Positions 4,978 through 64,000 of a stretch of 64,000 bases of DNA are shown in pieces. Positions within the stretch are counted from its first letter, which is position 1, and each line of letters opens with the position of its first letter. This DNA comes from Cornus controversa (lineage: Eukaryota > Streptophyta > Magnoliopsida > Cornales > Cornaceae). The DNA lies in NCBI GenBank assembly GCA_026545225.1, contig CM048845.1, positions 81,805,033 through 81,869,032 on the forward strand. Reading direction: 5' to 3'. The notes under the pieces are model-generated. The model had not been told where the DNA came from, ran no database searches, and saw only the letters and a list, made by a program, of their open reading frames with translations. Made by a program: the position numbers and the translations under genes.

Positions 4978-6348
4978 TAATGTTGTTTTAAAAGTGTAAA
5001 ATAACTCGCAAGTGTACAAATCTATTAAAGTATAGATTGGCAAGAACGAGGTCGAACCCAAGGGAATGCTTTGAAAAGAAAAACTAAAACAAACTCAAAT
5101 TAATTTAAAACTAATCTAGTTTAAACAAAAGTTGGTTGATTTGAGATAAATTAAACTAACGTGCAAATAAAATAACAAAATTGAAATCAAATAGAGAAAA
5201 TAACTAAAGTTTCGGATTCCACCACCATTAAATCCATGAAACTTCTAATATTCATTTATTAATTCTCAAATTTAGAGTAGCAATCAAGAAATCAATCTAT
5301 TGCTTACTCAAAATTTAACAATAAAGCATTATGAAAAATATATCAAAAAGGTAGATTTTTCTTTGCTTCACTAGTGTAAAATTCTAAGCATCTTATGTAT
5401 CCAATTTAATGAAAAACATAAGATCAAAGATTATCACTTTTAAGAAATACAAACTCAAGGTTAGATTAATTATAATACTTTCTAACTACCATATATACAT
5501 GATATAGATGGTGAAAGAATTAAAAATAATTAATCACAAGAAGCGAAAATCATAAGCATTTAAATCATATACATGAAAATTAATTAATGAACAAAATAAC
5601 TTCACTTCATTAATGGAGGTTTCCTCCTCAACCCTAGTTGAGGAGTTTAGTTACACATGGTAAAAGAAGAAGATAACAAAATAATAAAAGACATAATGAA
5701 TAAATAAAACCCGGATTGTCTCTGTCTTCTCTCCTCTAGCCTCCACTTCTTTTCTCCTCCCCAAAAATAGCCTCCAATTCCCCACTTTATACCCCAAGAG
5801 AATACATAAAGTTCTAATCCAATTAGGAGATAATTAGGGTTTTCCCGCATCCCTAAATAGATAAATTTTTAATAACTGACGTTCAGCCCAAGTTTTGACC
5901 CAGTAGAAGTCCGATTCACAAAATTTACGTAAAATATAAAAGTGTCCAGAATCAAATTTCGTTCAGGCTTTCCAAGAATTAGATCGAATTGACACTCAAA
6001 AATAAGACTTTCGGCCCCCTTTCCAAAACGGGATTAAAATTGGATTATGTGCAGAATTGGGCTTCAGGCCCGTAATCTTCTTAAACAATTATAATGCTCT
6101 TGAACCTCTTCCTCAGGTTGATTTGAGTTGAAATATGGAGTTGAATGGACCCATTAGATGTAGGCTTCATATAACCTTCTTATATATCATCTTTAAAAGC
6201 CCAAAATCATGGTTTTATCTGAAATAATCATTAAAGCCCTGAAAAGACAGAAAACACAAAAATAGAGTAAATTTACAAATAAAGTATTACTAAGAGAATA
6301 AAATATGCAAATTAAGAGGTTAGAATGCATAACATTCAACGCCGATCA
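4978..6348 (-). mobile_element. Solo LTR of an LTR retrotransposon, copy A (TSD TACTT)
   Basis: Comparison with the empty site in the paralogous block (about 26650-26660) shows a clean insertion here. TACTT occurs once at the empty site and twice here (4973-4977 and 6349-6353), a 5-bp target duplication. On the - strand the element starts TGATCGGCG and ends CATTA (expected CATCA; one base changed). It is the same family as the 1390-bp copy at 28281-29670, which lies in the opposite orientation. No internal coding region or second LTR is present, so it is a solo LTR. Confidence 0.9.
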
Positions 6349-6696
6349 TACTTCTCAATATATTGCTTTATAACTTTTGTCAAGTTGATTATTAATTCTG
6401 ATTCTATATTCTTGCAAGCTACGCAACATTCAAGCCTACAAAAAAGAAGTGCACCAGAACTTAACCTGCAAGGTCCATCATCTTTATTGCTGAGGAAACT
6501 ATTCTGCTAATTGGTCTGCCAACAAACACCACAGAGGGTAGGAGCTTAGAGCAACTCCTCTGGGCTTAGAAAAACTTGTTACTAAGCCGTTAAGCCCCAA
6601 TTAACCTCTCCTTTTCTGGTGTACCGTATCTTCATGCATGTATCCTATGTGACTGTGCATCTTCTAGAGCTTCATGAATTTGGACTCCAATTCAAT

Positions 6697-7200
6697 GACA
6701 AGAGAAATGATATTGTGGGGATGGGATATATTGGTTTCAAGATTGCAAAAAGAATCAAACCCTTTGGCCGCAACATCGCCTACATCTGAAGGAGGAATGA
6801 GCCACATTTGCCATTTCCTTATCATGCATGCAAATCTTTGAGACCTTAGAGTTAATAGTGACATTCTTATTCTATGCTTTCCATTGACAGCTTATTGGGG
6901 TAGTCATGACAGCAATGAGAATGAAAGGTCATCATGGATGCCAGATGTGGGTCTCTCCTCATGGAAATAATCTGTACTGTTTCCAGAGCGAGATGCGATT
7001 AGAGTTGCTAGTTTGGTCCCTCTTGATGTGTTTGAAAAATGAACCTAATGTGTCAAAAGAGCTATTCAAATTGGAAACGTTGTTTTATCTCCACATAAAG
7101 GCGGTGCAACCCCAGAATCCTTAGAAGCACTGCAAAAGGTAATCATAGCCAACCTAGAGGTTTTCTTTTTAAATAAGCCTTTGCCGTCAGCTTTGAATGA
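6697..7200 (+). pseudogene. HPR3-like exon 2 pseudogene (psi-a)
   Basis: Nucleotide similarity to the intact HPR3-like exon 2 (25242-25763) is plain: the region of the Rossmann GxGxxG turn (GATATTGTGGGGATGGGATA at 6707), the stretch over catalytic Arg/Glu, and the words for FKNEPNVSKELF and ALQKVIIANLEVF. Frameshifts, a deletion in the middle and a stop (TGA about 6787) abolish coding. A diverged copy of the reductase 3' UTR follows. It is the positional counterpart of psi-c at 26990-27500. Confidence 0.8.
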
Positions 7201-7763
7201 AGGAATATCATTCTTATAATAGAATGGCTTCATATCCACAGATTCAACCTTATGTTGGCATTAACTTATTATGTTCTATAAATAAATGCTTCACTTGTAC
7301 ATCAAATGGACTTCTTCAAATAATTGTTAAATCAAAGAAGCTGATACTTTTGATGGTGTAAGATTCAGAACAGATTGAGATGGATACAGAATTGATAATA
7401 ATTAAAAGTGTGTGCGCGCGTGTGAAGCTAGTTGGACTAGTCATTATTTTGCTCGACTTTGGCAAGAATACAAATATAGAGGCATGGTCTATTTAATTGT
7501 AGTTAGGCACAAATTTTAGAATAACGCCTTGGAGTTAAATTCGATTATATTAAAGTTCACAAACTGTTCCCAATATTCTTGCTTATGGACTGGAATTGTC
7601 AGTTTTTATCTTCTTGTTACATTTTCAAATTTGGAACATTACCCTTATTCTACCATCTGGTGAAGGAACTTGTGCATGCCAATTAATGATGTGTAATCTA
7701 CTTTTAACTTTTGTTGTTTCTGTCATGGCTTGATGTTAACTTAGCTTGCTATATTGGTTCTAG

Positions 7764-7868
7764 GTTGCAGAAAGGCTCAAGGCGTTGATAACAGCGTTGC
7801 CTACCCCTCAAGGAAAAGGAAGAAGAAGCCACATGTACCATTCTATTATTATGCAAATCCCTGAGATT
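7764..7868 (+). pseudogene. HPR3-like exon 2 pseudogene fragment (psi-b)
   Basis: A short piece starting after an AG (GGTTGCAGAAAGGCTCAAGG) covers the part of exon 2 just after the dinucleotide-binding turn and the Lys/Arg-rich KKPHV segment. It ends where homology to 28066-28172 stops, so the rest of the exon is missing. It is non-coding. Confidence 0.7.
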
Positions 7869-11563: not shown

Positions 11564-12304
11564 AGATTAGTCTAATTGGCAGCTGATATGCTTTAGTCAT
11601 TGCTTTCAATTAAATTTTGTGATATGGATTGCTCAGAAATGGTTGCTCTATCATTATCCTCATAACTGTATTGTCTCAGGTGGGGGTATTCAAAGCCTTT
11701 CCAGTTCGAAAACCTTGTTAAGCCTATCACAATCATATTGATTCATAAGAGTTTCATCAAATATTATTACATACTTGTAATATTCACAAGAATTTCTCAA
11801 TATAATTAAATTTATTTTTATTTCAAACTAACAATTAAAATTTATATAGCCCTTTGCTTTTATGCACTATCATCTCAATTACTAAATAATTTGGCTCTAT
11901 GCAACCGTGTATAGAGAAAGCTCTATTATTTACAAGCACGTTAATAAAAGTTCGCTTTTTCAAGCATGAGATCACATTAATTCGAGTTTGAGATTCCCCA
12001 TTTAAAGTGCAAATGATGTTAATGGCAAAAAAAAAAATGTTAAAGGTTAAGTTTATAACCAATCTGTTGATTTCAATTTTTTAACTAAGACTAATTGCTT
12101 TAATAACCTATGCAATCATGAGAAGTGAAATTAATTACAAGAGACAATAGTCTAGCAGTACTTTTTATTTTTTTAAAATAGAGGAATGAGTGTTTAAGTT
12201 ACAAAAATGAGTGCCTTATTTGATAGGAAAAAAAAAAAAAAGTGGATATTTAATTTGATTAATTAGTAAATTATTGTTTACATTTGTGTGTTTATGCATG
12301 GGAG

Positions 12305-12543
12305 AAAAACTCGGTTGCTCTCAGTGTATTGAAATAATTATAGTTCTAGGTGTAGTACACGATCGAGACCCATCACTACACTTACAGTTGTAATTCTCCC
12401 GGTGTGAGGTACACGGGGAGCAGCCAGATTTTTTTTCAATCAAGTTTTTAGGTGAGGGTCTTGTAAGAAAAAAACTTAATTGCTCTCGGTGCTGCGATGC
12501 ACCGCACACGGAGAGACTCGAGAGCAATCAAGGTTTTTTTTTT
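12305..12543. mobile_element. Small TIR element (MITE-like) in unit 1
   Basis: Ends read AAAAACTCGGTTGCTCTC and, reversed, AAAAACCTTGATTGCTCTC. Internally there are further inverted words (GCTCTCGGTG, CACCGCACACGG). The unit-2 counterpart is 21482-21719, so it predates the tandem duplication. No coding capacity. Confidence 0.55.
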
Positions 12544-13080
12544 ACCAACTAGCCACTACCATTATAAAGATAAGTAAGTTGTTCTTGCTACTCTCCCGGC
12601 CTTTCCGAGAGAAGGTTTTATTAATTAATTGGAGTACTATGTATCTTAATGAGCCTTTAAAATAGAAAAGTTTCTAACACAAGAAAAACTAATAATTCAT
12701 GTGGTCCAGCTGAGATTATAAACCTTTTAAAATATATAAATAAATAACACACCGACGAAGCCAGCCTCACATTGACCGACAAGTGGCCTAAGAAAAGTAT
12801 CCCTTATCCTTATCGATTGAAATGCTCATTCCACCTCCGAGATTATAATGTATGTAATGATTGAAATAAGATTTTAATATAACTAATTGATAAATAGTTG
12901 AAACAAATTGTCAGTTGAGAATATTATTTAAATAAAATTTTAAGAGCAGTAATGGTACAATGCTCGGTAATCCAGTGTCACATGATGTGTTGTACTAATG
13001 CAACAATATTCTTTATGCAACAACTTATTCAACAATTAAGTTATATTGCTTATGTAAAACATTAGCTCATTCGATGTATT

Positions 13081-13115
13081 ATATTATATTATATTATATT
13101 ATATTATATATTATA
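13081..13115. repeat. (TTATA)n microsatellite
   Basis: Pentanucleotide repeat upstream of exon 1 copy 1; the counterpart at about 22255-22278 is shorter, so the tract has changed length since duplication. Confidence 0.8.
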
Positions 13116-13452
13116 TAAATGATATATTGTGTTCGGTAGTCGGTACGAAGTACGTAAAGCGAAGGCAGGACGGGTGATCCTGATTCCAGCAAGACATTGG
13201 TTAAAAAGGCAAGCCGAAGTTCGTCACAAACAATGAACCAAAAATCAAACAATCGAAGTTGATGTACTGTGTACTGCTAATGAGTAATGACAAATTGACT
13301 ATGGATGCTACTCTTCATGGATACTCCATGCAACAATTCAACACTTTCCACCTAATCATATACATACAAAGAGGCCCTTTCCAAAAGACGACCAAAAGTC
13401 TTTTTTTGTAGTGCCAACTTTTGTGCTCTCTCATTCATCCCAAAACTCATCC

Positions 13453-13920
13453 ATGGCTTCTTCTTCCCAAGACCACCAACAATCCCAAGAAACCCACAAA
13501 TCAGACAACCTCCCCCTCGTTCTCATCCATCGTCTTCCCCACTTCAAGATCTTTTTCGGGGTACTCGAGACCCAGTTCCGCCTATTCGACCCTTCCGAGT
13601 CCAACCCTTCATCGCCCTTACCCGCCCAACCCCGGCTCTTGCTCTGCGTGGGTCACACGCCCGTGAACTCCGACACACTCGATCGGTACCCGTCGGTGGA
13701 GTGCGTGGTGGGCTCCACCGCCGGCCTCGACCACGTTGACCTCGCCGAGTGTCGCCGCCGCGGCGTCAGAGTCACCAACGCTGGAGACGCCTTCTCCGAG
13801 GACGTCGCCGACTGCGCCGTCGCACTCCTCGTCGACGTTCTCCGTCGGATCTCCGCTGCGGACCGGTACGTTCGAGCAGGGTTGTGGCATCTCAAAGGAG
13901 AGTATCCTCTTGGTTCTAAG
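13453..13920 (+). CDS. HPR3-like reductase exon 1, duplicated orphan copy
   Basis: This is an intact first coding exon (156 codons) of a D-isomer 2-hydroxyacid dehydrogenase of the HPR3-like type, ending in AAG followed by the donor GTCAAT. ATG 13453 is chosen because it begins the shared MASSSQDHQQ start. It is 468 bp, with six differences from the copy at 22613-23080, five of which change an amino acid (H/Q, N/D, H/P, T/S, A/S). The exon is strikingly GC- and CpG-rich compared with its surroundings. No exon 2 lies before the next exon 1, so this copy is either an orphan or could splice over 11.3 kb to the single exon 2 at 25242. Exon identity is seen in the sequence; expression is unknown. 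Confidence 0.7.
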
Positions 13921-14080
13921 GTCAATTTTGCCTTTTTCTTTAACTACACTACTAAATTGAACTTGATTCATTTTCTGATCATCAATCTCAGTTTAATTTG
14001 ATTTTCTCTGAATTGGTATTGAGCGAGTACAGTCTCTTCATATTTACTCCAAATGCTGATGAATAACAATTTTTTTTTCT

Positions 14081-14111
<31 letters not shown>

Positions 14112-14123
14112 CTTATGTATGCC

Positions 14124-14136
14124 GTGCCTACGGCAC
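14124..14136. repeat. 13-bp hairpin GTGCCTACGGCAC (older copy in the duplicated intron)
   Basis: The palindromic word recurs at 23276-23288 in unit 2 and at 14368-14380. Here the CTRR-like tetramer is not clean. It may mark an older small relative of the Helitron-like element. Confidence 0.4.
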
Positions 14137-14286
14137 TATCTCGCAAAAATTCGCAAAAAATTTAGATAGACCTTAGATAGTAAAAGACATTTTGTACTAT
14201 ATAATTAATTTTTTAATTATTTTTGACAGTTGGATTGAACATTTTCTCCTTCTTATACCAAGCTTGATATAGATATATATATATAT

Positions 14287-14336
14287 AGTTTAAACTCCAA
14301 TCCCAAGTTCTAGGACACCAATTCCAAGCTTCCAAA
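14287..14336 (+). repeat. 50-bp direct repeat, left flank of the insertion
   Basis: Starts AGTTTAAACTCC and ends AGCTTCCAAA; identical to 18813-18862 except for one base. Unit 2 has this 50-mer only once (from 23453), so the second copy arose with the insertion. Confidence 0.9.
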
Positions 14337-20770: not shown

Positions 20771-23406
20771 TAGATTAGTCTAATTGGCAGCTGATATGCT
20801 TGAGTCATTGCTTTCAATTAAATATTGTGATATGGATTGCTCAGAAATGGTTGCTCTATCATTACCCTCATAACTGTATTGTCTCAGGTGGGGGTATTCA
20901 AAGCCTTTCCAGCTCAAAAACCTTGTTAAGCCTATCATAATCATATTGATTCATAAGAGTTTCATCAAATATTATTACATACTTGTAATATTCACAAGAA
21001 TTTCTCAATATAATTAAATTTATTTTTATTTCAATCTAACAATTAAAATTTATATAGTCCTTTGCTTTTCTGCACTATCATCTCAATTACTAAATAATTT
21101 GGCTCTATGCAACCGTGTATAGAGAAAGCTCTATTATTTTTTCAAGCATGAGATCACATTAATTCGAGTTTGAGATTCCCCATTTAACGCGCAAATGATG
21201 TTAATGGCAAAAAAAAAATGTTAAAGGTTAAGTTTATGACCAATCTATTGATTTCAATTTTTTAACTAAGACTAATTGCTTTAATAACTATGCAATCATC
21301 AGAAGTGAAATTAATTACAAGAGACAATAGTGTAGCAGTATTTTTTATTTTTTTAAAATAGAGGAATGAGAGTTTAAGTTACAAAAATGAGTGCCTTATT
21401 TGATAGGATAAAAAAAAAGTGGATATTTAATTTGATTAATTAGTAAATTATTGTTTACATTTGTGTGTTTATGTATAGGAGAAAAACTCGGTTGCTCTCG
21501 GTGTATTGAAATAATTATAGTTCTAGGTGTAGTACACGATCGAGACCCATCACTACACTTACGGTTGTAATTCTCCCGGTGTGAGGTACACGGGGAGCAA
21601 CCAGATTTTTTTTCAATCAAGTTTATAGGTGAGGGTCTTGTACGAAAAAAACTTAATTGCTCTCGGTGTTGCGGTGCACCGCACACGGAGAGACTCGAGA
21701 GCAATCAAGGTTTTTTTTTACCAACTAGCCACTACCATTATAAAGATAAAATAAGTTGTTCTTGCTACTCTCCTGGTCTTTCCGAGAGTAGGTTTTATTA
21801 ATTAATTGGAGTACTATGTATCTTAATGAGCCTTTAAAATAGAAAAGTTTCTAACACAAGAAAAACTAATAATTCATGTGGTCCAACTGAGATTATAAAC
21901 ATTTTTAAAAAAATAAATAAATAAATAACACACCGACGAAGCCAGCCTCACATTGACCGACAAGTGGCCTAAGGAAAGTATCCCTTATCGATTGAAATGC
22001 TCATTCCACCTCCGAGATTATAATATATGTAATGATTGAAATAAGATTTTAATATAACTAATTGATAAATAGTTGAAACAAATTGTCAGTTGAGAATATT
22101 ATTTAAATAAAATTTTAAGAGGAGTAATGGTAGAATGCTCGCGTAATCCAGTGTCACATGATGTGTTGTACTAATGCAACAATATTCTTTATGCAACAAC
22201 TTATTCAACAATTAAGTTATATTGCTTATGTAAAACATTAGCTCATTCGATGTATTATATTATATTATATATTATATAAATGATATATTGTGTTCGGTAG
22301 TCGGTACGAAGTACGTAAAGCGAAGGCAGGACGCGTGATCCTGATTCCAGCAAGACATTGGTTAAAAAGGCAAACCGAAGTTCGTCACAAACAATGAACC
22401 AAAAATCAAACAATCGAAGTTGATGTACTGTGTACTGCTAATGAGTAATGACAAATTGACTATGGATGCTACTCTTCATGGATACTCCATGCAATAATTC
22501 AACACTTTCCACCTAATCATATACATACAAAGAGGCCCTTTCCAAAAGACGACCAAAAGTCTTTTTTGTAGTGCCAACTTTTGTGCTCTCTCATTCATCC
22601 CAAAACTCATCCATGGCTTCTTCTTCCCAAGACCACCAACAATCCCAAGAAACCCACAAATCAGACAACCTCCCCCTCGTTCTCATCCATCGTCTTCCCC
22701 AATTCAAGATCTTTTTCGGGGTACTCGAGACCCAGTTCCGCCTATTCGACCCTTCCGAGTCCGACCCGTCATCGCCCTTACCCGCCCAACCCCGGCTCTT
22801 GCTCTGCGTGGGTCCCACGCCCGTGAACTCCGACACACTCGATCGGTACCCGTCGGTGGAGTGCGTGGTGGGCTCCAGCGCCGGCCTCGACCACGTTGAC
22901 CTCTCCGAGTGTCGCCGCCGCGGCGTCAGAGTCACCAACGCTGGAGACGCCTTCTCCGAGGACGTCGCCGACTGCGCCGTCGCACTCCTCGTCGACGTTC
23001 TCCGTCGGATCTCCGCTGCGGACCGGTACGTTCGAGCAGGGTTGTGGCATCTCAAAGGAGAGTATCCTCTTGGTTCTAAGGTCAATTTTGCCTTTTTCTT
23101 TAACTACACTACTAAATTGAACTTGATTCATTTTCTGATCATCAATCTCAGTTTAATTAGATTTTCTCTGAATTGGTATTGAGCGAGTACAGTCTCTTCA
23201 TATTTACTCCAAATGCTGATGAATAACAATTTTTTTTTTTCTTGATATATATATATATATATACTTGTGTATGCGGTGCCTACGGCACTATCTCGCAAAA
23301 ATTTTAGATAGACCTTAGATAGTAAAAGAAATTTTGTACTATATAATTAATTTTTTAATTATTTTTGACAGTTGGATTGAACATTTTGTCCTTCTTATAC
23401 CAAGCT

Positions 23407-23456
<50 letters not shown>

Positions 23457-24919
23457 TAAACTCCAATCCCAAGTTCTAGGACACCAATTCCAAGCTTCCA
23501 AAGGCGTCAGAGTTTTATAAAATTTAATTCAGTGTGTGTGTGTATTTGTGAAAGAAAGTACACCAAGTTTCAAACAAATGAAACAAGCAGGGACTGTATT
23601 GTGCATATTAAAATATATATATATATATATTCCTATTTCAATTCCAAAGTGCCGATTCATGATCCCAAAAGTAACAATAGTGTAGAATAGTCAAACAATT
23701 CCATCATTCTAGGATAACATAATGGAAATAATTTTCTCAACTGACTTCTAAATGCATATCCTATATGAATAGAAATTTAGAATGACACTGTTTACACTGG
23801 AAACATCCAAAACATGACTGTCTTTATGCCAGTTTGACATACTGTATCATGACAAATCATAATCAAACCAATACATCGTGCCTGTTGGGTATTGTTATAT
23901 GTTATCCACTGACCCTTTTTTGAGATAATTGAACTTGAAATGGACTTTCATGGGGCAGAGTGATCTGAAAGTTAAAATGAATTCACCCACATTTACCATA
24001 TTTCTTTTCTTCACCCTTAAAACAGAGTTTTTGTTCTGTGATCGGATACAAAATTGGGATTGGATTGTGGTTTTCCCTACAGAGATGAATTATAGGCACA
24101 TGATCATACTATGCATGAAAGTTCCACCCCACTAATTTTTGTACGTTAATTGTAAGGTGCTCTTTGTCATCATGATTTTTAAGCGGATACTACTAGAGTC
24201 TCCAAAACACAGAAAAAGATAAAAACAAAGCAGAATAAATTAGGTGTTCTGAAATCAGATAATGGAAATGCTATGTAGTGAAATTAATATCTTGGTTTAG
24301 CCACCTATACAATATGCGTACATTAGGAGTATCATATTACGATATAAGTTCAGTTAGGATTGGGAGATCAGTAGAAAATTTCTTTATAGAGTACATTTGC
24401 AATATTAGATTTTTGACATTCATATGAGAGGGTGTAACTTTAATATTTAAATCCTTCAACACACCCCCTCACATATGGCCTTCTTTTGGTCCAACATGTG
24501 TTTCAATTTTAGTTATCGAGGTGACAGTGAGGTTTGAAGACAGGACCTTGCCTGCACTGAAAACATGTTAACAACTATATACTCTAAAAGCTTAAGCTAT
24601 TAGAGAGGGTGTAACCTTAATATTTAAATCCTTAAATAATGTCAATCATTTTTTAAATCTTTGTGGTTGTAGCGTCAGTCGTGTTCTAAGAGTAGCAGTC
24701 GTCAATTTTGTTATTGTTGTTGTTGAAATCAATATTATTGTTATTTTTGAACGTTTATTGTTTCTGGATTTCTTAAGTGTGGTATCTAGAAAAGTATTTT
24801 AGAATCAAGAAACAAGTCCATGGATGGTTTTAAGGTATTAAATATAAAGGGGGTTGGTGTATGTAGCATTTAGTCCTTTCCAAAGTATTACATGCAGAAA
24901 CCCAGGGACTAGTTATGTT
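20771..24919 (+). repeat. Tandem segmental duplication, unit 2
   Basis: The second copy, directly joined to the rest of intron 1 and exon 2 of the intact HPR3-like gene, so it is the ancestral setting. It matches unit 1 base by base over long stretches, including identical non-coding ORFs (19311 and 23929), and differs in microsatellite length and small indels. Confidence 0.9.
21482..21719. mobile_element. Small TIR element (MITE-like) in unit 2
   Basis: Counterpart of 12305-12543 with the same ends; small substitutions only. Confidence 0.55.
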
Positions 24920-26405: not shown

Positions 26406-28172
26406 AATTTTCAATTTGGAAAGGATTAGGGAAATATGAAATGCTTGTCCATTTCTTTCCTCTCTTTTCCATTTTTTATTTTTTTGGTTCTTTTCATTGC
26501 TAATGATCAAGATGCTAGGCTATCAAACTGTTGGGAACTGACCTGCCAAATAAGTAATCAAATTCAGCCTCAGTTTTGATGGTAATTTTCTTCCCTTATT
26601 AATCCTCTTCAATATTGCTATCTGAGTTTCCAAGCTAGTCCGCTGTAATATACTTCTCAATATATTGCTTATAACTTTTGTCAATTTGATTATTAATTCT
26701 GATTCTATATTCTTGCAAGGTACGCAACATTCAAGCTTGCAAAAAAGAAGTGCACCAGAACTTAACCTGCAAGGTCCTTCATCTTTATTGCCGAGGAAAC
26801 TATTCTGCTGGTTGGTCTGCCAACAAACACCACAGAGGGTAGGAGCTTAGAGCAACTCCACTGGGCTTAGAAAAACTTGTTACTAAGCCATTAAGCCCCA
26901 ATTAGCCTCTCCTTTTCTGGTGTACCGTATCTTCATGCCTGTATCCTTTGTGACTGTGCATCTTCTAGCGCTTGATGAATTAGGACTCCAATTCAATGAC
27001 AGGAGAAATGATATTGTGGGGATGGGATATATAGGTTTCAAGATTGCAGAAAGAATCAAACCCTTTGGCCGCAGCATCGCCTACCTCTGAAGGAAGAAGG
27101 AGCCACATATGCCATTCCCTTATCATGCAAATTCTTGAGACATTCTTGACCTTGGAGTTAATAGTGACATTCTTATTATATGTTTTCCATTGACAGCTTA
27201 TTGGGGTAGTCAAGACAGCAATGAGAATGAAAGGTCATCATGGATGCCGGATGTGAGTCTCTCCTCATGGAAGTAATCTGTACTGTTTCCAGAGCGAGAT
27301 GCGATTGGAGTTGCCAGTTTGGTCCTCTTGATGTGTTTGAAAAATGAACCTAATGTGTCAAAAGAGCTATTCAAATTGGATAACGTCGTTTTATCTCCAC
27401 ATAAAGGCGGTGCAACCCCAGAATCCTTCAAAGCACTGCAAAAATTAATCATAGCCAACCTCTCTAGAGGTTTTCTTTTCAAGTAAGCCTTTGCCGTCAA
27501 CTTTGAATGAAGGGATATCCATTCTTGTAACAGAATCGCTTCATATCCACAGATTCAACCTTATGTTGGCACTGACTTGTTATATTCTATAAATAAATGC
27601 TTCACTTGTACATCAAATGTACTTCAAATAATTGTTAAATCAAAGAAGCTGATACTTTTGGTGGTGTAAGATTCAGAACAGATTGAGATGGATACAGAAC
27701 TGATAATAATGAAAAGTGTGTGTGAAGCTAGTTGGACTAGTCATTATTTTGCTCGACTTTGGCAAGAACACAAATATAGAGGCATGGTCTATTTAATTGC
27801 AGTTAGGCACAAATTTTAGAACAGCGCCTTGGAGTTAAATTCGATTATATTAAAGTTCACAAACTGTTCCCGATATTCTTGCTTATGGACTGGAATTGTC
27901 AGTTTTTATCTTCTTGTTACATTTTCAAATTTGGAACATTACCCTCATTCCGCCATCCGGTGAAGGAACTTGTGCATGCCAATTAATGATGTGTAATCTA
28001 CTTTTAACTTTTGTTGTTTCTGTCATGGCTTGATGTTAAATTAGCTTTTGCTATATTGGTTCTCAGGTTGCAGAAAGGCTCAAGGCCTTTGATAACAGCA
28101 TTGCCTACCCCTCAAGGAAAAGGAAGAAGAAGCCACATGTACCATTCTATTATTTTGCAAATCCCTGAGACC
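26406..28172 (+). repeat. Segmental repeat copy 2 (HPR pseudo-exon block)
   Basis: Colinear with 4714-7868 without the solo LTR of that copy. It follows directly on the intact gene. Its internal exon-2-like pieces and their 3' UTR-like tails show that exon 2 plus 3' flank had been tandemly multiplied before the block itself was duplicated. Confidence 0.8.
26995..27505 (+). pseudogene. HPR3-like exon 2 pseudogene (psi-c)
   Basis: Counterpart of psi-a. It retains GATATTGTGGGGATGGGATA, KNEPNVSKELF-coding words, and CTCCACATAAAGGCGGTGC over the catalytic His region, but has stops and a deletion between. It is followed by a diverged copy of the reductase 3' UTR with AATAAATGC. Confidence 0.8.
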
Positions 28173-53499: not shown

Positions 53500-54631
53500 G
53501 AAATTGTGTGGATAAGTACATTACAGAGCAAGGAAAGAAGGAATGGGACAGGAAGTATACATAGACCCACGCGGGGGCATCCTCCCCGCGTATGGGATAA
53601 TCCCGCGGGGGACATGCACCCGCGTGGTTAACCCATGCGCGGGCAGCATCTCCCCGCGCAGGGTCAGCCTTTTCCCGCGGAGGGATGGTCCTTTCCCCGC
53701 GTAGGGATATTTACATAAAAGGAATTCTTATTCCCCAGGAAGGGGTTAGCAAAGCATACAAGAGCACAGGGAGTGAGAAGATTGGGGGCAATCCTCTCTG
53801 ACGGGCATGTTATGTTTGCTAATTAGATTGTGTTTTCTGGAACCAACTCTGAAAGAAGTATGATTCTATAAAACACTTCTAAATTAACAAACATGGCATA
53901 CTCTCAAGGGTTACAAGGAACCATGGATGAATGGGCCATTGTGTGGCTTAACCAGCCCACAATCCCGAGTGGTTATCCTTGTAGCAGGGGCTATGTAGAT
54001 GACTATTAATTCTTCTCTTCAATATGGAAAGTAATTTGTCGCGACGTTACTTCTAGTATTGAGGAGTGGGAATTAGTATGAGGCTACGGTGTCTCACAGA
54101 CCATTTTAGGCACAGGTACAGGCTGTGATATGGTCTGGGCGATCATGGTGTCATGATAGAGCATATGGCGTCATGGTCCCAGGCGGGAAGGTGGGTTGAG
54201 TGTGGTATGGAGGATTGAGAGGAAGGCTCGTTGGGCCATGGGTATCTAAAGGTTGTGCTAGTGTGACTCTATACGGGCACCATCACAACGTTTCTCGCGG
54301 GTATGACCAAGCCCGCGAGGGGTATAGGCTCATGGTTACAACCGGGAGTGGTAAAGGAAGGGATACGCGGCCAAGTGCCACGTAGGATGACAGCTGTCAT
54401 AAGCCCCATGCCTGAGGTCTATAAATACCCCATGGCGTGGTGACATGTGGATCATTCTGGTGCCCCCTCCCTCTCTGAATCACTCTTGCTTTCTCTCTCT
54501 CCCACCTAGCACCCAGCTCACATTCCTATTATTGTTTCCTGGTTACTTCATCAGCTTGATCCTATTCAGTTCTTACAACTCAGTCCTGTGATAGTCATTC
54601 CTCATAGCAGAACTCTTCTACCTATTTACAA
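53500..54631 (+). repeat. 5' LTR of the Tat-lineage Gypsy element (left edge approximate)
   Basis: The right edge is fixed by the primer binding site at 54633. TATAAATA at 54420-54427 is a good LTR TATA box, giving a leader of about 180-200 bases to the primer site. The left edge lies somewhere at 53.46-53.57 kb; the other LTR is outside the window, so I cannot align them. 53570-53702 is a CCCGCG-rich tract. Confidence 0.65.
53570..53702. repeat. Cluster of CCCGCG/CGCGGG words in the LTR
   Basis: Eight GC-rich words (such as CCCCGCG, CCCGCGGGG, CCCGCGTGG, CCCGCGGAGGG) sit 13-22 bases apart in otherwise mixed DNA. They share a CGCG core and G or C runs on one or both sides. This is the densest cluster of a motif that recurs across the element. 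Confidence 0.85.
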
Positions 54632-54632
54632 T

Positions 54633-54650
54633 TGGCGACTCCACTGGGGA
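54633..54650 (+). promoter_or_regulatory. Primer binding site of the Tat-lineage element
   Basis: TGGCGACTCCACTGGGGA directly follows the LTR. It ends in the TGG complement of a tRNA CCA tail; Ogre/Tat elements are reported to use tRNA-Arg, which may apply. The tRNA identity is not verified. Confidence 0.75.
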
Positions 54651-54664
54651 GGATTGCCTTTCAC

Positions 54665-57600
54665 ATGGCTGGTCAGCAGAATGTTAAGCGGAAAGGGAAG
54701 CAAGCTGCACCAAGTTCTCAGAGAGCTGATCAAAATCCAGATCCGGCCAATCCTGTCAATTCAGGTGTTCCTCAACAAAGGCGTAAAATACAAAGAAGGC
54801 AGAATCCACCAATCACTGTGACTCCTCCACAATCTCAAGATAATATACCCCCAATGATGCTCCAAGTACTAGCAAACATCCAAGAAACTCAAGTGCAGAT
54901 CCTACAGTTTTTGCGAACTCAGCAGTCTAGTCCCAGAACAGAGCGATCACCTGTTCCCGGTCGAGGACAATCACTTCAGATAACAGCTCCGGATGTGACA
55001 GAAAATCCTGGCCGAAAGGAATCTGACAATGATATCCAGCACAATGTTAATGCCTCGTTCGTAACCATTGAGCAATTACAAGCAATTCTTAATTCCAAAA
55101 AGAATACAACTGTTGATATTGAGGTCCCACCGCCTTATGATCCCGCCATATTATTAATGCCATATCCGGAGGGATATTTTTCTCCAAAATTCAGACAGTT
55201 TGACGGTAGGGAAGGAGATGCAAGGGAGCATATCGCGCGATTTGTGGACGCGTTAGGTGCCTACAGAAATGATGAACAGCTTAAGCTCAGGGAATTCTCA
55301 AAATCCCTTACAGGAAGAGCTTACACCTGGTACATGAATTTAGTGCCAGGAACAGTGTTAACTTGGGCAGAAATGCTGGCTAAATTCTACGAAAAATTCT
55401 TCACCACTGAGGAGCGAGTCACAATGCTGTCGTTAACTCGGCACAAGCAAAAGTTGGGCGAAGAAGTAGTCACATATGTCAAACGTTTCCGTGAGATGTC
55501 ATTGGAATGCTTTGAGCCGACCTCAGAAGAGCAACTTATAAAAATATGCGTGGATGGTATGTTGAGAGAGTATCGGGTGCATTTAGTTAATCATGAGATA
55601 AAAACCTTCTCTGGCCTAATGAATAGTGCCAGGCGTTTGGGAGAAATTATTCCACCTCCAGCCAAGGGAAATGTCTTCCCGCGGAGGGCCACTGTTGCGG
55701 CAACTCCGAGTCAGATAAGCAGTAATACAGGGAGAGTCCGACGGCCAGAACCCGCACCTTTGCCATTTGGTATCAAGGAGGCAATATCATTATTGACTCA
55801 GTGGATCAAGGATGGTGTTGTTACCTTACCCGCGGTAGAAAGACTTCCTAGCAGAGAAGAAAAGGCAAAATCGAACTACTGCCCCTTTCACCGAGCTGTA
55901 CGACATTGTCTAACTGATTGCTGGGCATTCAGGGGAATAGTACATAAAAAGATCGCTGAAAAGAGCATAGATATTGCTGGAAACAATGTTGTCAACAATC
56001 CATTCCCTCAGCATGCAGCAACCGTTGGTGTAACTGATCCAATGGATGAAGGAGAATATCAAGCCACGAATACAGATACAGAAGCTCATATACATTGCTT
56101 CTTCAATGATCTTTCAATTCCAGAACAGATCAAGGAATTCTTAATAAATCAGACCGTAGCCGCTTTGGTTCACACTCGCAACGAATCATCTATACAAGAT
56201 GCGACCAAGCAAGGAGAGATTGTCTTTTCAATGGCAGATAAGCAAGTTCCTTTCCCTCACAATCGGCCGCTGTATGTGCCAGTTACAGTCAATGGTCGAG
56301 ATTTAAAAAGAGCTTTCCTTGATAGCGGGGCTTCAGTAAATATCATGCCATTGACCACTTTAAAGGCAATACAATTCCCTTAAGCGAAGATTGTACACCA
56401 ACCTATAAGCGTTACAGCTTTCAATGGGGAACAACAAGCTACAATCGGATATGCAACGGTCGATCTAAAAGTAGGGAAAATCAGAGCCCCTACCAAGTTC
56501 CATGTCATAAAAGGTGAACCATCTTATCAGTTGTTGTTAGGCAGACCTTGGATGCATGCTTACGGGGTGGTCCCATCCTCTTATCATTAAGTTATGAAGG
56601 CTAATTGGGGAAAGGGCACTATGACGCTCCAGGCTTCTAAAGACCCTTTTTGCCCTTCGGAGGCTCATTTTGCCGATGCAATTTTCTTTAATGAATATAC
56701 GGATGAAATGGCCAATGATGAGGTTCAGGCCATTCCACTTCCTAGATGGGAGGAACTACAAGCAAGAGTATCCCCTAAAAGGCCCGCAGAGAAGGAAGTA
56801 AACTGGACTAAGGTAAAAATGGCAGATGGAAGGGTTGTATACAAGTTATGACGGGGCGCGGGGACAGGGCTCCCACCTGAAGCTCGTGTCCCCAATACTG
56901 CCGAGGTTCTCATATGTGCGGATGCCATAAGACTTTCAGAGGAAGATGCTGCAAGTTTTCTAATAGAAGAAGAGCTGGAAGAAGTAGATATTGGAGATGG
57001 GGTCTCTCCGCGGCCCACATTGATCAACAAGAAACTTGATTCAAACTTAAAAATGGCCATTATACAGTTATTGAAAGAGTACCAGGATGTGTTTGCATGG
57101 GCATATGATCAGATGCCCGGACTTGATCCCAACCTAGTTGCTCACCAGCTTAACATAAATCCTTCCGCGGTGCCTGTCAAGCAGAAACAGAGGGCCTATC
57201 GTCCGGATTTGGAGATACGGATCAAAGAAGAAATCCAGAAGCTACTCAAAGCAGGGTTCATAAGACCCACTCAGCATCCCACATGGCTTGCTAACATCGT
57301 GCCTGTACAAAAGAAAAATGGTCAGATTCGGATATGTGTTGATTATCGAGATCTCAACAAGGCTTGTCCAAAAGATGAATTTCCGCTTCCAAATATTGAC
57401 ACAATGGTGGATGCCACGGCAGGTCACGAGTTGTTTTCATTAATGGATGGATTCAGTGGATATAACCAAATAAAGATGGCCCCTGAAGATGCAGAGAAAA
57501 CAGCCTTCCGAACACCAATTGGAAACTTTCATTACACAGTCATGCCCTTCGGATTGAAGAATGCAGGCGCTACTTACCAACGGGCTATGACAGCAATTTT

Positions 57601-60535
57601 TCATGACATGATCCACCATGAAGTAGAAGATTATGTAGATGATTTAGTTGTGAAATCAAAGAAATGCATGGACCACATACGAGATTTAGAGAAGGTTCTC
57701 CGTAGATGCCGTGAATATAACCTGAAGATGAACCCGATGAAGTGTGCCTTCGGTGTCCAACAAGGAAAATTTTTGGGATGTATAGTCCACAGGCAGGGCA
57801 TTGATTTAGATCCCAGCAAGGCTAAAGCAATAATCGAAATGGATCCGCCGCGGACAAGAAAATTATTGCGGGGTTTCATGGGGAAAGTATCATACTTAAG
57901 GCGTTTTATCCCAGCACTGGCAGAAGTGACTCATCCTTTAATCCCGTTAATGAAGGATAAAATTCCTTATGAATGGAGTGCCGAACATCAGGTGGCATTT
58001 GAGAAGGTGAAGGGAATCCTGACATCACCACAGACAATGACGGCTCCGACACCGGGAAAAGGATTGATCATGTATTTGACTTCTACTGAGAAATCTATCG
58101 GTGCTCTGTTGGCCCAGGAACATGAGCAAATGGAAAAACCTGTGTACTATATTAGTAGAGTACTTCGAGGAGCAGAGGTGCGTTATACACCGATAGAAAG
58201 ACACTGTTTATCCCTGGTCTTCGCAGCGCAGAAATTTAGGCACTATCTGTTGGCACATCCAGTTGAATTGATTACAAAGAGCGATCCCGTTAGGTATTTG
58301 TTGTCAAAACCACTGTTGTCAGGAAAATTGGCTCGCTGGTTGCTCGCCCTATCCGAATATCAGATTACATGCTCCAATCCCAAGGCAGTAAAAAGTCAAG
58401 CTCTCGCTGATTTATTGGCTATGTTCCCGCGGGGGGAGTCAGAACCAAATAGCATCTTTGATGTTGCAATTTGTGATGAAATTTCATCGGAAGAAACAGA
58501 TCTTTGGAAATTGGAATTTGATGGATCCTCCACAGAAAGAGGAAATGGTGCTGGCTTCATAATGACCAATGAAAAGACAAAAGAGGAAATTGCTATGTCA
58601 TACAGACTAGACTTCCCTTGTACTAATAACATGGCCGAATATGAGGCGTTGATACTAGGTCTATCCGCAAGCTTGGCAGCAGGAATACAGAAAATGGTGG
58701 TCTACGGTGACTCTAACTTGATAATCAAGCAAATCAGAGGAGAATACTCGGTAAAAGAGCCTCGCCTTGCTACCTATCGGGATATTGTGCAAGAAATGAT
58801 GAAGAATTTTCAATACATAAAATTCGAGCACAAACCCCGAGCAAGTAACAGGCGATCTGATGCATTGGCAACTTTGGGGTCTCAATTGGAATTAAGAGAA
58901 AATATGACAATGGTCAATCTTCTTCGTCGAACTCAGCCCGCGACAATATTTTACGATCACCCAGAAGAGGAAGAAAGTGATTGGAGGAAGACAGTTATAG
59001 AAAAACTCAAACAGTTGGGTGGGGTTAAAGATATGGCATTAGAAAAGCAGTACCAACTGGTTGCTAATAGACTCTATCATCGCGGGCCAGACGGGGTATT
59101 GTCAAGATGTCTCGGGCCCAAAGAGGCTGAAAAAATATTGACAGAAGTACACAAGTCTTCTTGTGAAACGACAGATATTAGCCTGTACCGAAGATTACAA
59201 AGACAAGGGTACTTCTGGCCGACAATGAAAAAAGAGGCAGTAAAAGTACAAGAGGCATGCTCAGGCTGTTGCTGTCTTACTGCGCACACTGAAACAAATT
59301 TTGTTGAGATCTCAGACTGGAGAGACCAATATGTGGAATACTTGCGAGAACAAACTCTACCTAGAGACAAAAAGGAGGCTTTCCGTCTACAAAGAAGAGC
59401 GAAGAGATTTTTTGAGGAAAATGGGGTATTATATCGAAAAGGGTTTAATGGTCGACCTTTGAGATGTTTGAAAGAAGAAGAAGCCCAGGAAGTCCTAAAA
59501 CAAACGCATGATATGGGACATCAAGGAGGACACAAACTCTTCCACCAATTGGTCGCGGCGGGGTATTACTGGCCTACCATGGAAAAAGATTCTTTGGATT
59601 ACACGAAAAAATGTCATATTTGCCAAATCCATGGGTCAATGATAAATGCCCCCGCGGCAAGCTTGCACAGCCTGGTAACTCCATGGCCGTTTCACACTTG
59701 GGCATTGGATATTGTTGGACCAATTACACCGGCATCGCGGGGGTATACATGGCTTTTGGTAGCTACAGAATTATTCTCAAAATGGGTAGAGGCTACTCCA
59801 TTAAAAAAAATTGTGGCAGTTAATGTGGCTAGATTCATAAAGGAAAACATTATTTGCCGATTTGGAATACCAAAGGTATTACTTTCGGACAATGGTACAC
59901 CATTTGTTAACTCAACAGTTAGAGAATTATTGGGCAACTATATGGTGTCCCATCACAGATCAACGCCTTACTATCCAAAGGGGAATGGACAAGCCGAGGC
60001 CAGTAATAAAACACTCATTCGGATTCTAAGTCGTTTGGTTCACGAAAAGCAAAAAGAATGGGTCGAACAGCTACCAATCGCATTATGGGCATATAGAATT
60101 ACTCGGAAAAATTCCATAGGAGAAACACCCTACGCGTTGGTATATGGCGCAGAAGCAGTGCTTCCCGCGGAGCTTCAAATTGAGGCAATAAGATTGGTAG
60201 GGAGGAGCGCAGATACTCAGAGACTAAGCCAATTAGAAGCCCTGGATGAAAGGAGGGAAAAGGCCCAAAACCATCACAAGGTTTATTTGGCAAGTCAGTC
60301 ACGACACTATAACAAGAAAGTACACCCGCGAGAATTTAAAGTTGGAGAATTGGTGCTAAAAGTGGTACCTGCAATTATGAGAGGGCAAGGGGTTCAGAAA
60401 TTTCAACCAAAATGGGAGGGACCTTTTGAAATAAGGGAAGCAAATGAAAGTGGTTATTACAAGCTTGAAGAGTTGGGAACCAATTTTAAGACAGGGCCTA
60501 TAAATGTCAAATGGATAAAGAAATATTTAGCTTAG
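54665..60535 (+). pseudogene. Tat-lineage Ty3/Gypsy gag-pol, one frame with three in-frame stops
   Basis: A single frame from ATG 54665 (MAGQQNVKRKG) to TAA 60535, broken at 56381-56383, 56588-56590 and 56849-56851. Order: gag core (FDGREGDAREHIARFVDAL, WYMNLVPGTVLTWAEM) and a YCPFH..H..C knuckle-like site; protease (FLDSGASVNIM); RT (YVDDLVVKS); Gypsy RNase H (IGALLAQE..YYISRVL..ERHCLSL); a second, archaeal-type RNase H (LEFDGSSTERGNGAG, MAEYEALILGL, VYGDSNLIIKQ). Then come integrase with zinc site (H..H..CHIC) and DDE core (LDIVGP, LSDNGTPF, GQAEASN), and a C-terminal domain (WEGPFEI). Two RNases H mark the Tat clade. From 57020 on, 1171 codons are open. There is no frameshift; the stops separate PR from RT. 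Confidence 0.95.
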
Positions 60536-60651
60536 AAATATTTGTTACTTGTACTACAAAAGAGTTCAATAAAAGTAAAGGAAGTGCAGCTACAATGTAC
60601 TGGTGGATTACAATCCAAAAGCCTGAGTCATCAAAAGAAAAAAAAACAAAG
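60536..60651. other. Convergent gap between pol and the antisense gene
   Basis: Only 116 bases separate the pol stop from the antisense stop codon. Sense and antisense transcripts would overlap in their 3' parts. No clear terminator is seen. Confidence 0.6.
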
Positions 60652-63600
60652 TTACAGAATATCCTTAAAGATTAGGTCCGAGGGGATGACACCACAGGAG
60701 GACACTTTTTTCGAAATGATATCCATAAGATCTGCTGCCTTCACTTTATTCGCGGCAATACGGTCCTCCAAAAATGATAAGTGCTGGCGAGTAGTATCTG
60801 CTTCGGCTTCATCCTTTGCAAGATCTGAAGTTAAGAGAGCATGCTGGTCATTCAGGACTTGTATCTCATGACTATGAACCGTATCTTGTAGGCGAGAATC
60901 CAGCCAAGGAAGTGATAGGCCAACAGCTTGCCAGTCACTAATACGTCTTTGGAGGCTCGGGACTGTCGCAGGATTAATACTAGATAATGGCTGATCATCA
61001 AGGGAGATAAGAAAGTCAGCCACAGCATCCAAAAAGAAACGCTGATACAAAGGATCTTGAAAAGCAAAATTAGCAAAAGTTTCAGGATAACGACGATAGA
61101 TCCTATTAAGCATCCCCACATTACGAAAGCTACAAGAAAAGGAGCGCCATTCAACGGGGTCATCAGGCTTTAAATTCTGAGGATTCAGAAATACTTCGAG
61201 GTCTGAACGCAAACCCTCGCTAAAAACAGAATCAGAATCCATAACGGAGGTCTGGGGATCATACTCTACAAAACAGGAGGGAGATTGTCAGAAAAATTGG
61301 ATGAAAGTATATATATATGGAGAAAATTACAGAAAAATATAGCGAATACCTGGCCCGGGGGAAGGCTTATCAGTAGTATCAACATTAGGCATATGAGCCG
61401 CGGGAAGAGGGCAGGATAAGGCAGGTGGCTGACTAGCTTCACCCGCGGAAGGAATATCATCACCTTCGAAAATTTGGAGATCGTCACCCGGACGCCCAAA
61501 GATTTCTTTGGATAAAAGGGCAGTATCCTTACTCACCGCGGCCAGCTCGCCTGCAACATCTGAAACATCACCCTCGGTCGCGGGCAAATTCTCAGCCTCA
61601 AGTTCCGACATCATAAGATCTACTAATGGATCTTGGCTGGAGACAGGCTCTGTCCTGTCTACAGGTTCGCTATCTTGCGAAGAAAAAAGTAAGTGACCGG
61701 CATCATGTCTAATGCGAGCCAAGGGGTCATCATCATCCGCGGGTGCAGAAGGGGAAGGAACTGATAAAATAGGGGTAGACTGTGATTGTGGGACAGTGGG
61801 CACAGGAAAGGCAGTTGGTTTGCGAAGGGATAGTAAGACCGAGATGGGAAGTTGGTCATCTTCGTCCACTGTCATCATGGTTATATGTTTTGAGGGAGAA
61901 AGGGGGGAAGAGCCCACAGAGGGTTGAACGAGATCACCAGAGGCCGTATGATGACCCTCCGCGGGAAGGTTTTGGCCTGAGTCATCCTCCGCGAAGGGAA
62001 TGACATTGGGCAGAACAGGGTGACCTTCCGCGGGGGGATCAGTATGAGAAGCAATCCCCTCCGCGGAACCTTCTGTGTCCATGGCTTGGTCAAAAGCTAA
62101 AATAAGATTGCCTGGTTCTGTTGAGCGTAGAGGATCGCTTCCAGAGATAGAAGTTTCCTTGTATGTAACTGGCTTCCGCGGACGAAGAGCCTGTGTTGGA
62201 TAAAAATATAGAAATGTGTTAGGTTTGAGTCATAAAGAGTAAAAATGAGGGATTTACACAATAAAAAATGTACCATCCGGACTTTCTTTTTGATAGGTTC
62301 GGAATCAACGATCGTGTCCGGCTCATGATCAGCAACGGAAGAAGCTTCGACATCCAGGGGTAAAGTGGCACGGGCCAAGCGCTTTCCGCGGGGAGCCTTC
62401 TTCAATAGGCAACTTGTATACAAACGAGCCGTATGGACTTGAGGACATTTCAGCGTAAAATCATCCTTGTAGACTAAAGCTGTTTCGGGAATAGATGGTG
62501 GACTCTCGACAAAATCTTTGAGAATTGTATGCATATGCTCCAAATACCGCAAGTAACTTGCTGAACAATGACCTCTCCGGTGTACGGATGGAATCTCTAC
62601 ATACGAAGAAAACCGCCGATTCACTAGTTCGCATTTCTTCCGATAGAAAAGCAATGAAGCATCAAAGGTTTCTTCCCAGACGAAGTTGACAGAAGGGATG
62701 TTCTGGTCATAGCCCAATTGACGTGCCGCTCGCATTGGGTAGTAGCCAGTCCTTTTGAGGCGTGTTTCACTCACAGCACAAAACATCATCTGTGACATGT
62801 TCGGTTTATCCTCCTCAACAATAATAGTCTCCTCTGGATAAAATAATGGAAATTGAATACCATCATACTGAATGGTATAAGGACGGAATTCGAACAATTC
62901 TTCGCAGTCTATTGAATCGCCAATATCTCCGACCCAACCAATATTGTGCCACCGCATGGCCTGACCATTATCTAAGAGAGCGCCGTTGACATCAAAGAGG
63001 TCAAACTCACAAGGTTTATTAGCATACCGAGGGAACCGCTCGAAAAGGAAAAGCATCAAAAAAAGAGAAGAAACATGGCTACTAATCTCGTAGCGACCTT
63101 TAGAACGGGGATAGTCAGAAACAATGTCATCTAGGCGATTATACAGAGTGCCCAAGAACATAGGGGCCAAGGGAAGTGTGTCACCCTTAGCCAAAACAGT
63201 TGCAAGAAGGAAGGTGTCCCTGTCGGGGCCATCTTGAGGTCGACCCTCAAAAATAAATCTGTCCAAAAAGTAAACAAGGAAAGCTGCCAGTTCATAGCCT
63301 TTACCAAATTCCAGACCATCCACATACTGTCGAGCACGTTGACTCTCACGAAGGTCTTTGGTCCTCTTCTCGTAATCCCGAAAAAAATAGCGGAACCAAG
63401 AAGTATAAGTAAGTTTCGGGGATTTTACCTTAGGGCGGGTCTTCAATTTTTTAGAACCCTTGAAAATAGTGTCCAAACGCATGGCCTCATCCGCGAAGGC
63501 ATTCAGAGAGTCACGAAGGGACAAGACTTCTGGTGAAGCTATGGGAGCAGCAACTTCTCCAGAGCATAGAATAGGAAGTCTACAAAGCACCGCCACGTCT

Positions 63601-63980
63601 TCTAAAGTAGGGGTAAATTCACCCCAAGAAGTCACAAAAGTATGATGCACCGAGCTCCATCGTGAAATAACAGATGTAAGTCCCTCTGCATCCCTCTTGA
63701 CAGAGAGTTCAGAAAAAAGCTTAACAGATTGAAACACCTTGGCTCGGTGGAGAGTCTCACAGTACTCAGGAACTCCAAGAATATAATGTGACCATTCAGT
63801 CCATTCTGCAGTGGCACCCATATGTGATTCATATTCAGTAAAACTAAAAGGATAGTCCCCCCGTTCCAGTCGAAGACGAGGGATGGATTCGGGAACAATG
63901 GTAAAACTCTCCATACTATCATCTGTGCTAAGTATTACGAGGTCACCGGATACCTCCATATCGGGTATAAATTCTTCCAT
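60652..63980 (-). CDS. Antisense plant mobile domain (PMD) protein of the Tat element, three exons
   Basis: On the - strand: exon 1 63980-62274, intron 83 bp (GTACAT..ACACAG), exon 2 62190-61350, intron 84 bp (GTATTC..TTGTAG), exon 3 61265-60652. Phases (0, then 1) fit exactly and give 1053 aa with no stop. Residues about 50-450 look like the plant mobile domain (PF10536): WTEWSHYILG, then FVTSWGEFTPTLEDVAVLCRLPI, WFRYFFRDYEKR, and YELAAFLVYFLDRFIF. The middle is a low-complexity Pro/Ser/Asp/Glu-rich, NLS-flavoured part (KKKVR). Exon 3 is helical and perhaps coiled-coil (LAKDEAEADTTRQHLSFLED). PMD proteins of the host (MAIN, MAIL1) act in gene expression and transposon silencing; retrotransposon versions are known. 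The role here is unknown. ATG at 63978-63980 is 20 bases from the window edge, so an upstream exon cannot be excluded. Confidence 0.85.
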
Positions 63981-64000
63981 GGAACTCCAGAAGTGATCAT

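Follow-up and report, generated by a model that had tools for sequence, protein, structure and literature searches.

The window, by which we mean the whole 64,000-nucleotide stretch analysed here, ends in most of one copy of a Ty3/gypsy retrotransposon of the Tat clade and Ogre type (its last 10.5 kb, from 53507). The − strand of this copy, between pol and the 3′ LTR, raises two questions: whether three open frames that look separate there are one spliced gene, and what such a gene would do for the element.

The element and its antisense gene

The backbone of the element shows the following features.

53507 to 54630, + strand: 5′ LTR (TG..CA), about 1.12 kb, flanked by the 5-bp target duplication AATTG
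53570 to 53701, no strand assigned: U3 array of eight CGCG cores, spaced 17, 17, 17, 17, 17, 21 and 22 bp
54608 to 56383, + strand: gag and start of the protease (Pfam)
54634 to 54651, + strand: putative primer binding site TGGCGACTCC..., after the 5′ LTR, possibly of the tRNA-Arg type
56852 to 60535, + strand: pol, with reverse transcriptase, RNase H, a second RNase H (RVT_3) and integrase (Pfam)

The second RNase H between RNase H and integrase, a hallmark of Ogre elements, is present, with Pfam placing RT_RNaseH at pol residues 402-503, RVT_3 at 556-674 and H2C2/rve at 875-1042, and tRNA-Arg is the primer type given for Ogre elements in the parts of PMC9289625 consulted here. The 3′ LTR falls beyond the window, and over 1125 aligned bases the two LTRs show a single mismatch, indicating that the insertion is recent. 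Despite these near-identical LTRs, the gag-pol frame (54608-60535) holds three in-frame stops, at 56381, 56588 and 56849, and this copy may therefore have moved with help, or the stops may lie inside an intron-like region. Elsewhere, the window contains long duplicated segments of 93-94% identity (11564-14336 with 20772-23502, and 6348-7866 with 26650-28170).

On the opposite strand, the gene reads as follows, in the direction of its own transcription.

62274 to 64000, − strand: exon 1, whose frame extends beyond the window; its start (MTKKK) precedes the ATG at 63980 by 39 codons
62685 to 63725, − strand: plant mobile domain (PMD, PF10536), residues 86-432 counted from 63980, E=3.5e-27
62274 to 62291, − strand: basic cluster KKKVRM at the end of exon 1, presumably NLS-like, basic in nearly all copies
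62191 to 62273, − strand: intron 1, 83 bp, GT-AG
61350 to 62190, − strand: exon 2, an acidic/proline-rich linker without Pfam match, with eight CCGCGG sites
61266 to 61349, − strand: intron 2, 84 bp, GT-AG
60652 to 61265, − strand: exon 3, a conserved C-terminal domain of 203 aa without Pfam match
60694 to 60909, − strand: predicted 72-residue helix within exon 3, likely a coiled coil (single-sequence model)

The exons 63980-62274, 62190-61350 and 61265-60652 join in phase and without a stop into 1053 codons, in agreement with the sequence-only reading, which had proposed one spliced gene. Its start codon at 63980 did not stand: the true start lies 39 codons further upstream, giving 1092 codons, and this MTKKKQ... 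start is present in all 12 copies examined for it. The window copy lacks nine exon-1 codons that other copies have. G+C content is 28% and 30% in the two introns versus 43-52% in the exons. As had also been proposed, the introns lie antisense to the genomic RNA and the gene converges on pol, with 116 bp separating the two stop codons.

A search of the exon-1 protein against its own genome (772 Mb, 61 contigs) returned at least 79 matches, and among the 79 matches listed 33 are stop-free inside. Our exon tables cover 21 copies that all carry the family's gene, namely 20 fetched with their flanks (the window copy among them) plus L030; L029 was also fetched and aligned, and is excluded from these tables as a member of a sister family. 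All 21 copies keep the exon order 1-2-3 with short gaps, with L018 showing a frame-split exon 2 and L027 an exon 3 that matches only partly. Intron 1 has its GT in 20 copies and its AG in 20, intron 2 has its GT in 20 and its AG in 21, and the lengths of exons 1, 2 and 3 leave remainders of 0, 1 and 2 when divided by three in 20 of the 21. Intron lengths are free across the 21 copies, with any remainder (82-108 bp for intron 1, 56-97 bp for intron 2). The damaged cases for splice sites or phase are L018 and L028. GT-AG borders at both introns together with the absence of an internal stop are seen in 11 copies, and 10 fail this test.

The same exon-intron layout is thus found in other copies in the genome, with the order kept in all and the phases in nearly all, and the outcome that the sequence-only reading had named as speaking against it, related copies with unconserved introns and broken frames, was not found. 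Chance joining of frames is ruled out by the conservation in 21 copies. In L025-L027 intron 1 measures 84 bp and is in frame (open frames of up to 947 aa), so that a transcript retaining it would still encode a long protein. Three PMD-exon copies at C1:64509400, 64526422 and 64543612, 94-95% identical and about 17 kb apart, are likely a tandem array of elements. No relatives were found among the viral contigs and plasmids searched.

Selection, domains and distant relatives

With respect to selection, dN/dS was computed by NG86 for seven representatives (21 pairs; L018 was excluded for its frame-broken exon 2). Values are 0.04-0.23 for exon 1 in the six of 21 pairs with computable dS, the other 15 being saturated, 0.04-0.28 for exon 3 in 15 of 21 pairs, with six saturated, and 0.23-0.41 for the exon-2 linker in all 21, so that exons 1 and 3 are read as constrained domains and exon 2 as a looser linker. 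For the 3′ part of pol, the 10 pairs of five representatives range over 0.08-0.17. Furthermore, exon-1 codon positions 1+2 differ by 6-16% and third positions by 40-57% in nine of 10 pairs; the exception is L025-L028, a close pair (2.5% at positions 1+2, 13% at position 3). Purifying selection acts on the exons and the introns drift, and the antisense gene is almost certainly real and selected.

The exon-1 protein matches PF10536, as the sequence-only reading had expected from a plant mobile domain, with a score of 95.9 bits versus a Pfam cut-off of 34.9. Pfam returned only this domain on exons 1-3, leaving exons 2 and 3 empty. The helical tail was likewise borne out, since the exon 3 model gives the 72-residue helix. 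This single-sequence model is weak overall (mean pLDDT 63), with values of 80-91 over most of the helix, and exon 3 is best described as a conserved, predicted mostly helical domain. The corresponding model of exon 1 is unusable (pLDDT 32). A search of solved structures found none for exon 1, and the single match for exon 3, at E=0.14, was dismissed as chance-level.

The exon-3 domain is matched at least 150 times in the genome, down to 25-27% identity, and the distant families that have it also carry an adjacent PMD and are Ogre-like. L031, which has an integrase on the other strand, carries PMD, linker and tail in an antisense gene whose single intron sits at the place of intron 1; an intron at this place is readable in both distant families L031 and L034. 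Intron 2 is absent in L029, L031 and L034, with the L029 frame being open across the intron-2 site, and L032:1773-4676 (C2:12602800-12607800) holds an intronless PMD-linker-tail frame of 967 aa, with a second match 4.8 kb away, and may be either an element or a retained gene. This distribution across distant loci indicates that intron 1 is old and intron 2 lineage-specific, and the intronless L032 and intron-2-less L029 and L031 indicate that splicing is no fixed need of the protein. A precise loss of intron 1 by retroprocessing in L029 was considered and rejected: compared by eye with L034, the change is a deletion reaching into exon 1. At C2:46775447-46787418 and in L033, head-to-tail matches with about 1.46-kb spacing are made up of fragments from the linker and tail of an L031-type antisense gene, a satellite-like amplification.

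Divergent cassettes, promoter block and CCGCGG sites

We compared the window copy with 12 others in 150-bp bins along the locus. The close copies L011, L012 and L013 are 92-100% identical throughout. In the nine divergent copies, identity per bin is 83-100% in pol and 81-99% in the LTR interior, and 47-98%, mostly 60-90%, in the gene. The drop in identity starts at the pol stop codon and its other edge lies near or inside the LTR, with similarity beginning at LTR position 60-63 in nine copies and at position 1 in ten. Between copies with 92-97% identity in pol, exon 1 reaches only 70-74% and its silent sites are saturated; for L009 versus L025 the values are 96.8% in pol and 71.2% in exon 1, again with saturated silent sites. 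Breaks also occur inside the gene (between L017 and L022, exon 3 is 98.7% identical and exon 1 73.6%). Old, diverged antisense genes are thus carried as cassettes on a recently spread backbone, a pattern whose simplest cause is recombination between elements, probably by template switching.

The sequence-only reading had reasoned that the gene needs a promoter of its own, and a conserved TATA block is indeed found upstream of its start. About 100 bp ahead of MTKKK, a TATATA box lines up in every one of the 12 copies (that of L030 was placed by alignment, its upstream slice being shorter than the others'). Across six cassettes (15 pairs), the 105-bp block ending in TATATA is 71-96% identical; for 13 of the pairs, identity is 43-57% in intron 1, 34-56% in the 5′ UTR and 41-47% at exon-1 third positions, with the remaining two, close pairs being higher. 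Judged by this conservation, the block looks like a core promoter. The sister loci L029 and L032 show no TATATA in the 300 bp that precede the start, and the TATA promoter is therefore not general.

A second feature is the palindrome CCGCGG, of which 19 of the window's 22 occurrences lie within 53540-64000. Enrichment was assessed with shuffles that preserve protein and codon usage, bearing in mind that look-alike linker repeats could multiply a word without selection. The antisense reading frame has nine sites versus 0.71 expected and gag-pol, on the opposite strand, has eight versus 0.57, with none of 2000 shuffles reaching either count. Five divergent cassettes have five to ten sites each, and none of 500 shuffles reaches the count in any of them. 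Among hexamers, CCGCGG ranks first in five of eight sequences, second in two and fourth in one. Some sites are common to cassettes, and several arose separately in different cassettes. In the U3 array, five to eight cores keep the spacing in eight of eight other copies.

The sister families differ in this respect. Sister pol is 72% identical (719/999), and at the four of six pol sites that can be compared there is no CCGCGG, the residues being the same or similar and encoded by other codons. CCGCGG was absent from 30.1 kb of sister-family loci (L029, L031, L032, L034-L038), with similar G+C where measured. The L029 family has a perfect 16-bp GC-rich palindrome of its own, GCGACCCGTGGGTCGC, repeated four times at 31-bp spacing upstream of the PMD gene (L037:2673-2781), which is not enriched in the coding parts of that family. 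No convincing coding-part motif was found in the sister families (GCGACC in the L029 family, 5 versus 1.76, reached by 14 of 500 shuffles; best word in the L031 family at z 4.5).

What reads these sites, if anything does, admits three answers. To the first, that a host transcription factor of the CAMTA type binds CCGCGG/CGCG and drives the LTR without involvement of the PMD protein, we give appreciable, if less than even, weight. All eight U3 cores fit VCGCGB, the consensus of the CAMTA CGCG-box, and the antisense promoter block also contains CGCG cores; set against this, CCGCGG is the only NCGCGN word that no shuffle reaches in seven of seven coding sequences, and such sites would be unexpected inside gag-pol and the linker. 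The second, that the motif is an unselected by-product of a short GC-rich unit duplicating in linker and LTR, seems unlikely: four linker sites do fall within look-alike SAEG/PAEG/FAED units and the U3 array is a tandem repeat that has diverged, but the eight gag-pol sites are at unrelated places and several exon-1 sites are of separate origin in different cassettes. The third, rather improbable as a whole, is that a dimer of the PMD protein would bind the family's CCGCGG sites (densest in the U3 array and scattered over gag, pol and its own linker) and avert silencing. Cassettes would then be kept and swapped since silent-site divergence aids evasion of homology-dependent silencing under continued constraint on the protein, and the palindrome array of the L029 family would be a second specificity.

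Possible role and known systems

Gene structure, selection, promoter block, cassette and motif can be read from the DNA itself, and the role of the gene is proposed from them. On balance, we favour as the best overall explanation that this is a genuine accessory gene of the element. Transcription would start from the gene's own TATA promoter, immediately internal to the 3′ LTR, and proceed in the direction of pol, and the two introns would be spliced from the antisense RNA. The introns would survive replication and be copied faithfully because they are antisense to the genomic RNA and invisible there to the spliceosome. In the product, the PMD would be followed by a flexible linker and a tail that is helical and probably dimerises, and the protein most likely enters the nucleus, given the basic KKKVRM at the exon junction. 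There it would act in trans on the chromatin or transcription of its own family, and we lean somewhat towards a regulator of the element's own expression. Counter-silencing would be its most likely mode of action, and as a particular role we propose it tentatively, at well under even probability.

The basic cluster at the exon 1/2 junction would also suit a protein with a part in replication or integration, such as bringing the pre-integration complex into the nucleus, and not in regulation. We know of no replication or integration role for PMD proteins, and a separate opposite-strand promoter is easier to reconcile with independent regulation than with joint production of the protein and Gag-Pol. 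The gene is retained in recently active copies (LTR pair with 1 mismatch/1125 bp), and the excerpts used of the review PMC7264820 include an accessory-factor proposal for some retroviral accessory proteins; taken together, we consider this role quite improbable. Very unlikely, in our judgement, is that the antisense transcript matters and not the protein, forming dsRNA with the genomic RNA and so limiting copy number. The genes do converge with 116 bp between stops, and tea PMD genes give phased siRNAs according to the parts consulted of PMC10673657, but the strong protein-level constraint seen at codon positions and the kept splice phases argue against it. A neutral passenger, in which old frames persist through the youth of the copies, as the 10 of 21 aligned copies failing the intact test might suggest, is refuted for the gene family by dN/dS and has next to no probability, since saturated silent sites with a protein still 72-78% identical and splice sites kept need long purifying selection.

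The regulatory reading of this accessory gene can be set beside several known systems, beginning with the extra ORFs (eORFs) of Ogre elements. In the sections consulted of Neumann et al. 2019 (PMC6317226), the PMD is reported in the eORFs of 57% of Ogre elements, and a PMD ORF as such is therefore not new; PMC9289625, also consulted in part, reports it in Gypsy consensuses of ten plant species, or 40 with a looser filter. The eORFs of Neumann et al. are like the present gene in the second RNase H between RH and INT, the PMD extra ORF and the 3′ reverse classes, and differ in being intron-unaware getorf calls of at least 250 codons; the same sections of PMC6317226 describe no spliced gene, C-terminal domain, promoter, cassette exchange or motif. 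Grande has an antisense gene with its own promoter and a nuclear product (Gomez-Orte 2013, via excerpts of PMC11963269 and PMC7264820), and TRP28 antisense ORFs occur in 97% of Retand clusters (Vicient 2025; PMC11963269, in the same excerpts). Maize Grande gene23 and Retand TRP28 thus resemble our gene in lying antisense between pol and the 3′ LTR, with their own promoter, and in being old and conserved, and they differ in encoding a Transposase_28 domain, not a PMD; neither PMC11963269 nor PMC7264820 uses the word "intron". The search for antisense and spliced transcripts is called for in the latter, a 2020 review.

Host MAIN/MAIL1 with PP7L (PMC7156037) likewise are PMD proteins, the host ones functioning in silencing, and differ in that the linker and tail are undescribed in the part of that account considered. 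The sequence-only reading had called the element's protein a relative of MAIN/MAIL1, and by our comparisons this relationship amounts to the shared Pfam domain only: exon 1 shares 24-26% identity with two of the genome's strongest host-like PMD loci, and the PF10536 matches of these host-like loci are far stronger (E down to 1.4e-117 versus 3.5e-27 for exon 1). The genome's strongest PMD matches form a cluster at C8:6640444-6921794, mostly open frames and probably host PMD genes.

The most similar motif system appears to be that of VANDAL/VANC, with any binding here being only putative. Like our family, VANDALs have a family-specific short motif within the element, arrayed sites and motifs that differ by family (Hosaka 2017, PMC5735166; Sasaki 2023, PMC10398659, both consulted in part), and unlike it they are DNA transposons whose motifs are non-coding and in one orientation. 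Concentration of the motif in the element is found here as well (19/22 in the window; 0 in the 30.1 kb of sister loci), whereas our motif is palindromic and also present in coding parts of both strands, and by Pfam, which gives only the PMD, the protein shows no homology to VANC. A spliced antisense gene is also known from HTLV-1, namely HBZ, which is alike in being an antisense retroelement gene that regulates its element, as proposed here, and different in its unrelated protein, its animal retrovirus and its LTR promoter.

In a literature search that was not exhaustive and is no proof of novelty, we found no report of a spliced antisense PMD gene, of cassette exchange or of the CCGCGG motif. 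The cassette and motif results are new and go beyond the earlier finding. Extra genes of plant retrotransposons have been catalogued for years without known function; here the extra gene is a complete spliced gene, with a promoter block, two constrained domains, exchange as a unit and silent-site saturation, and ORF callers blind to introns split such genes in three. The antisense gene may be the element's control over its own silencing, and the cassette and the CCGCGG palindromes offer testable handles on the question of whether sequence-specific anti-silencing exists in retrotransposons, as it does in the VANDAL DNA transposons.
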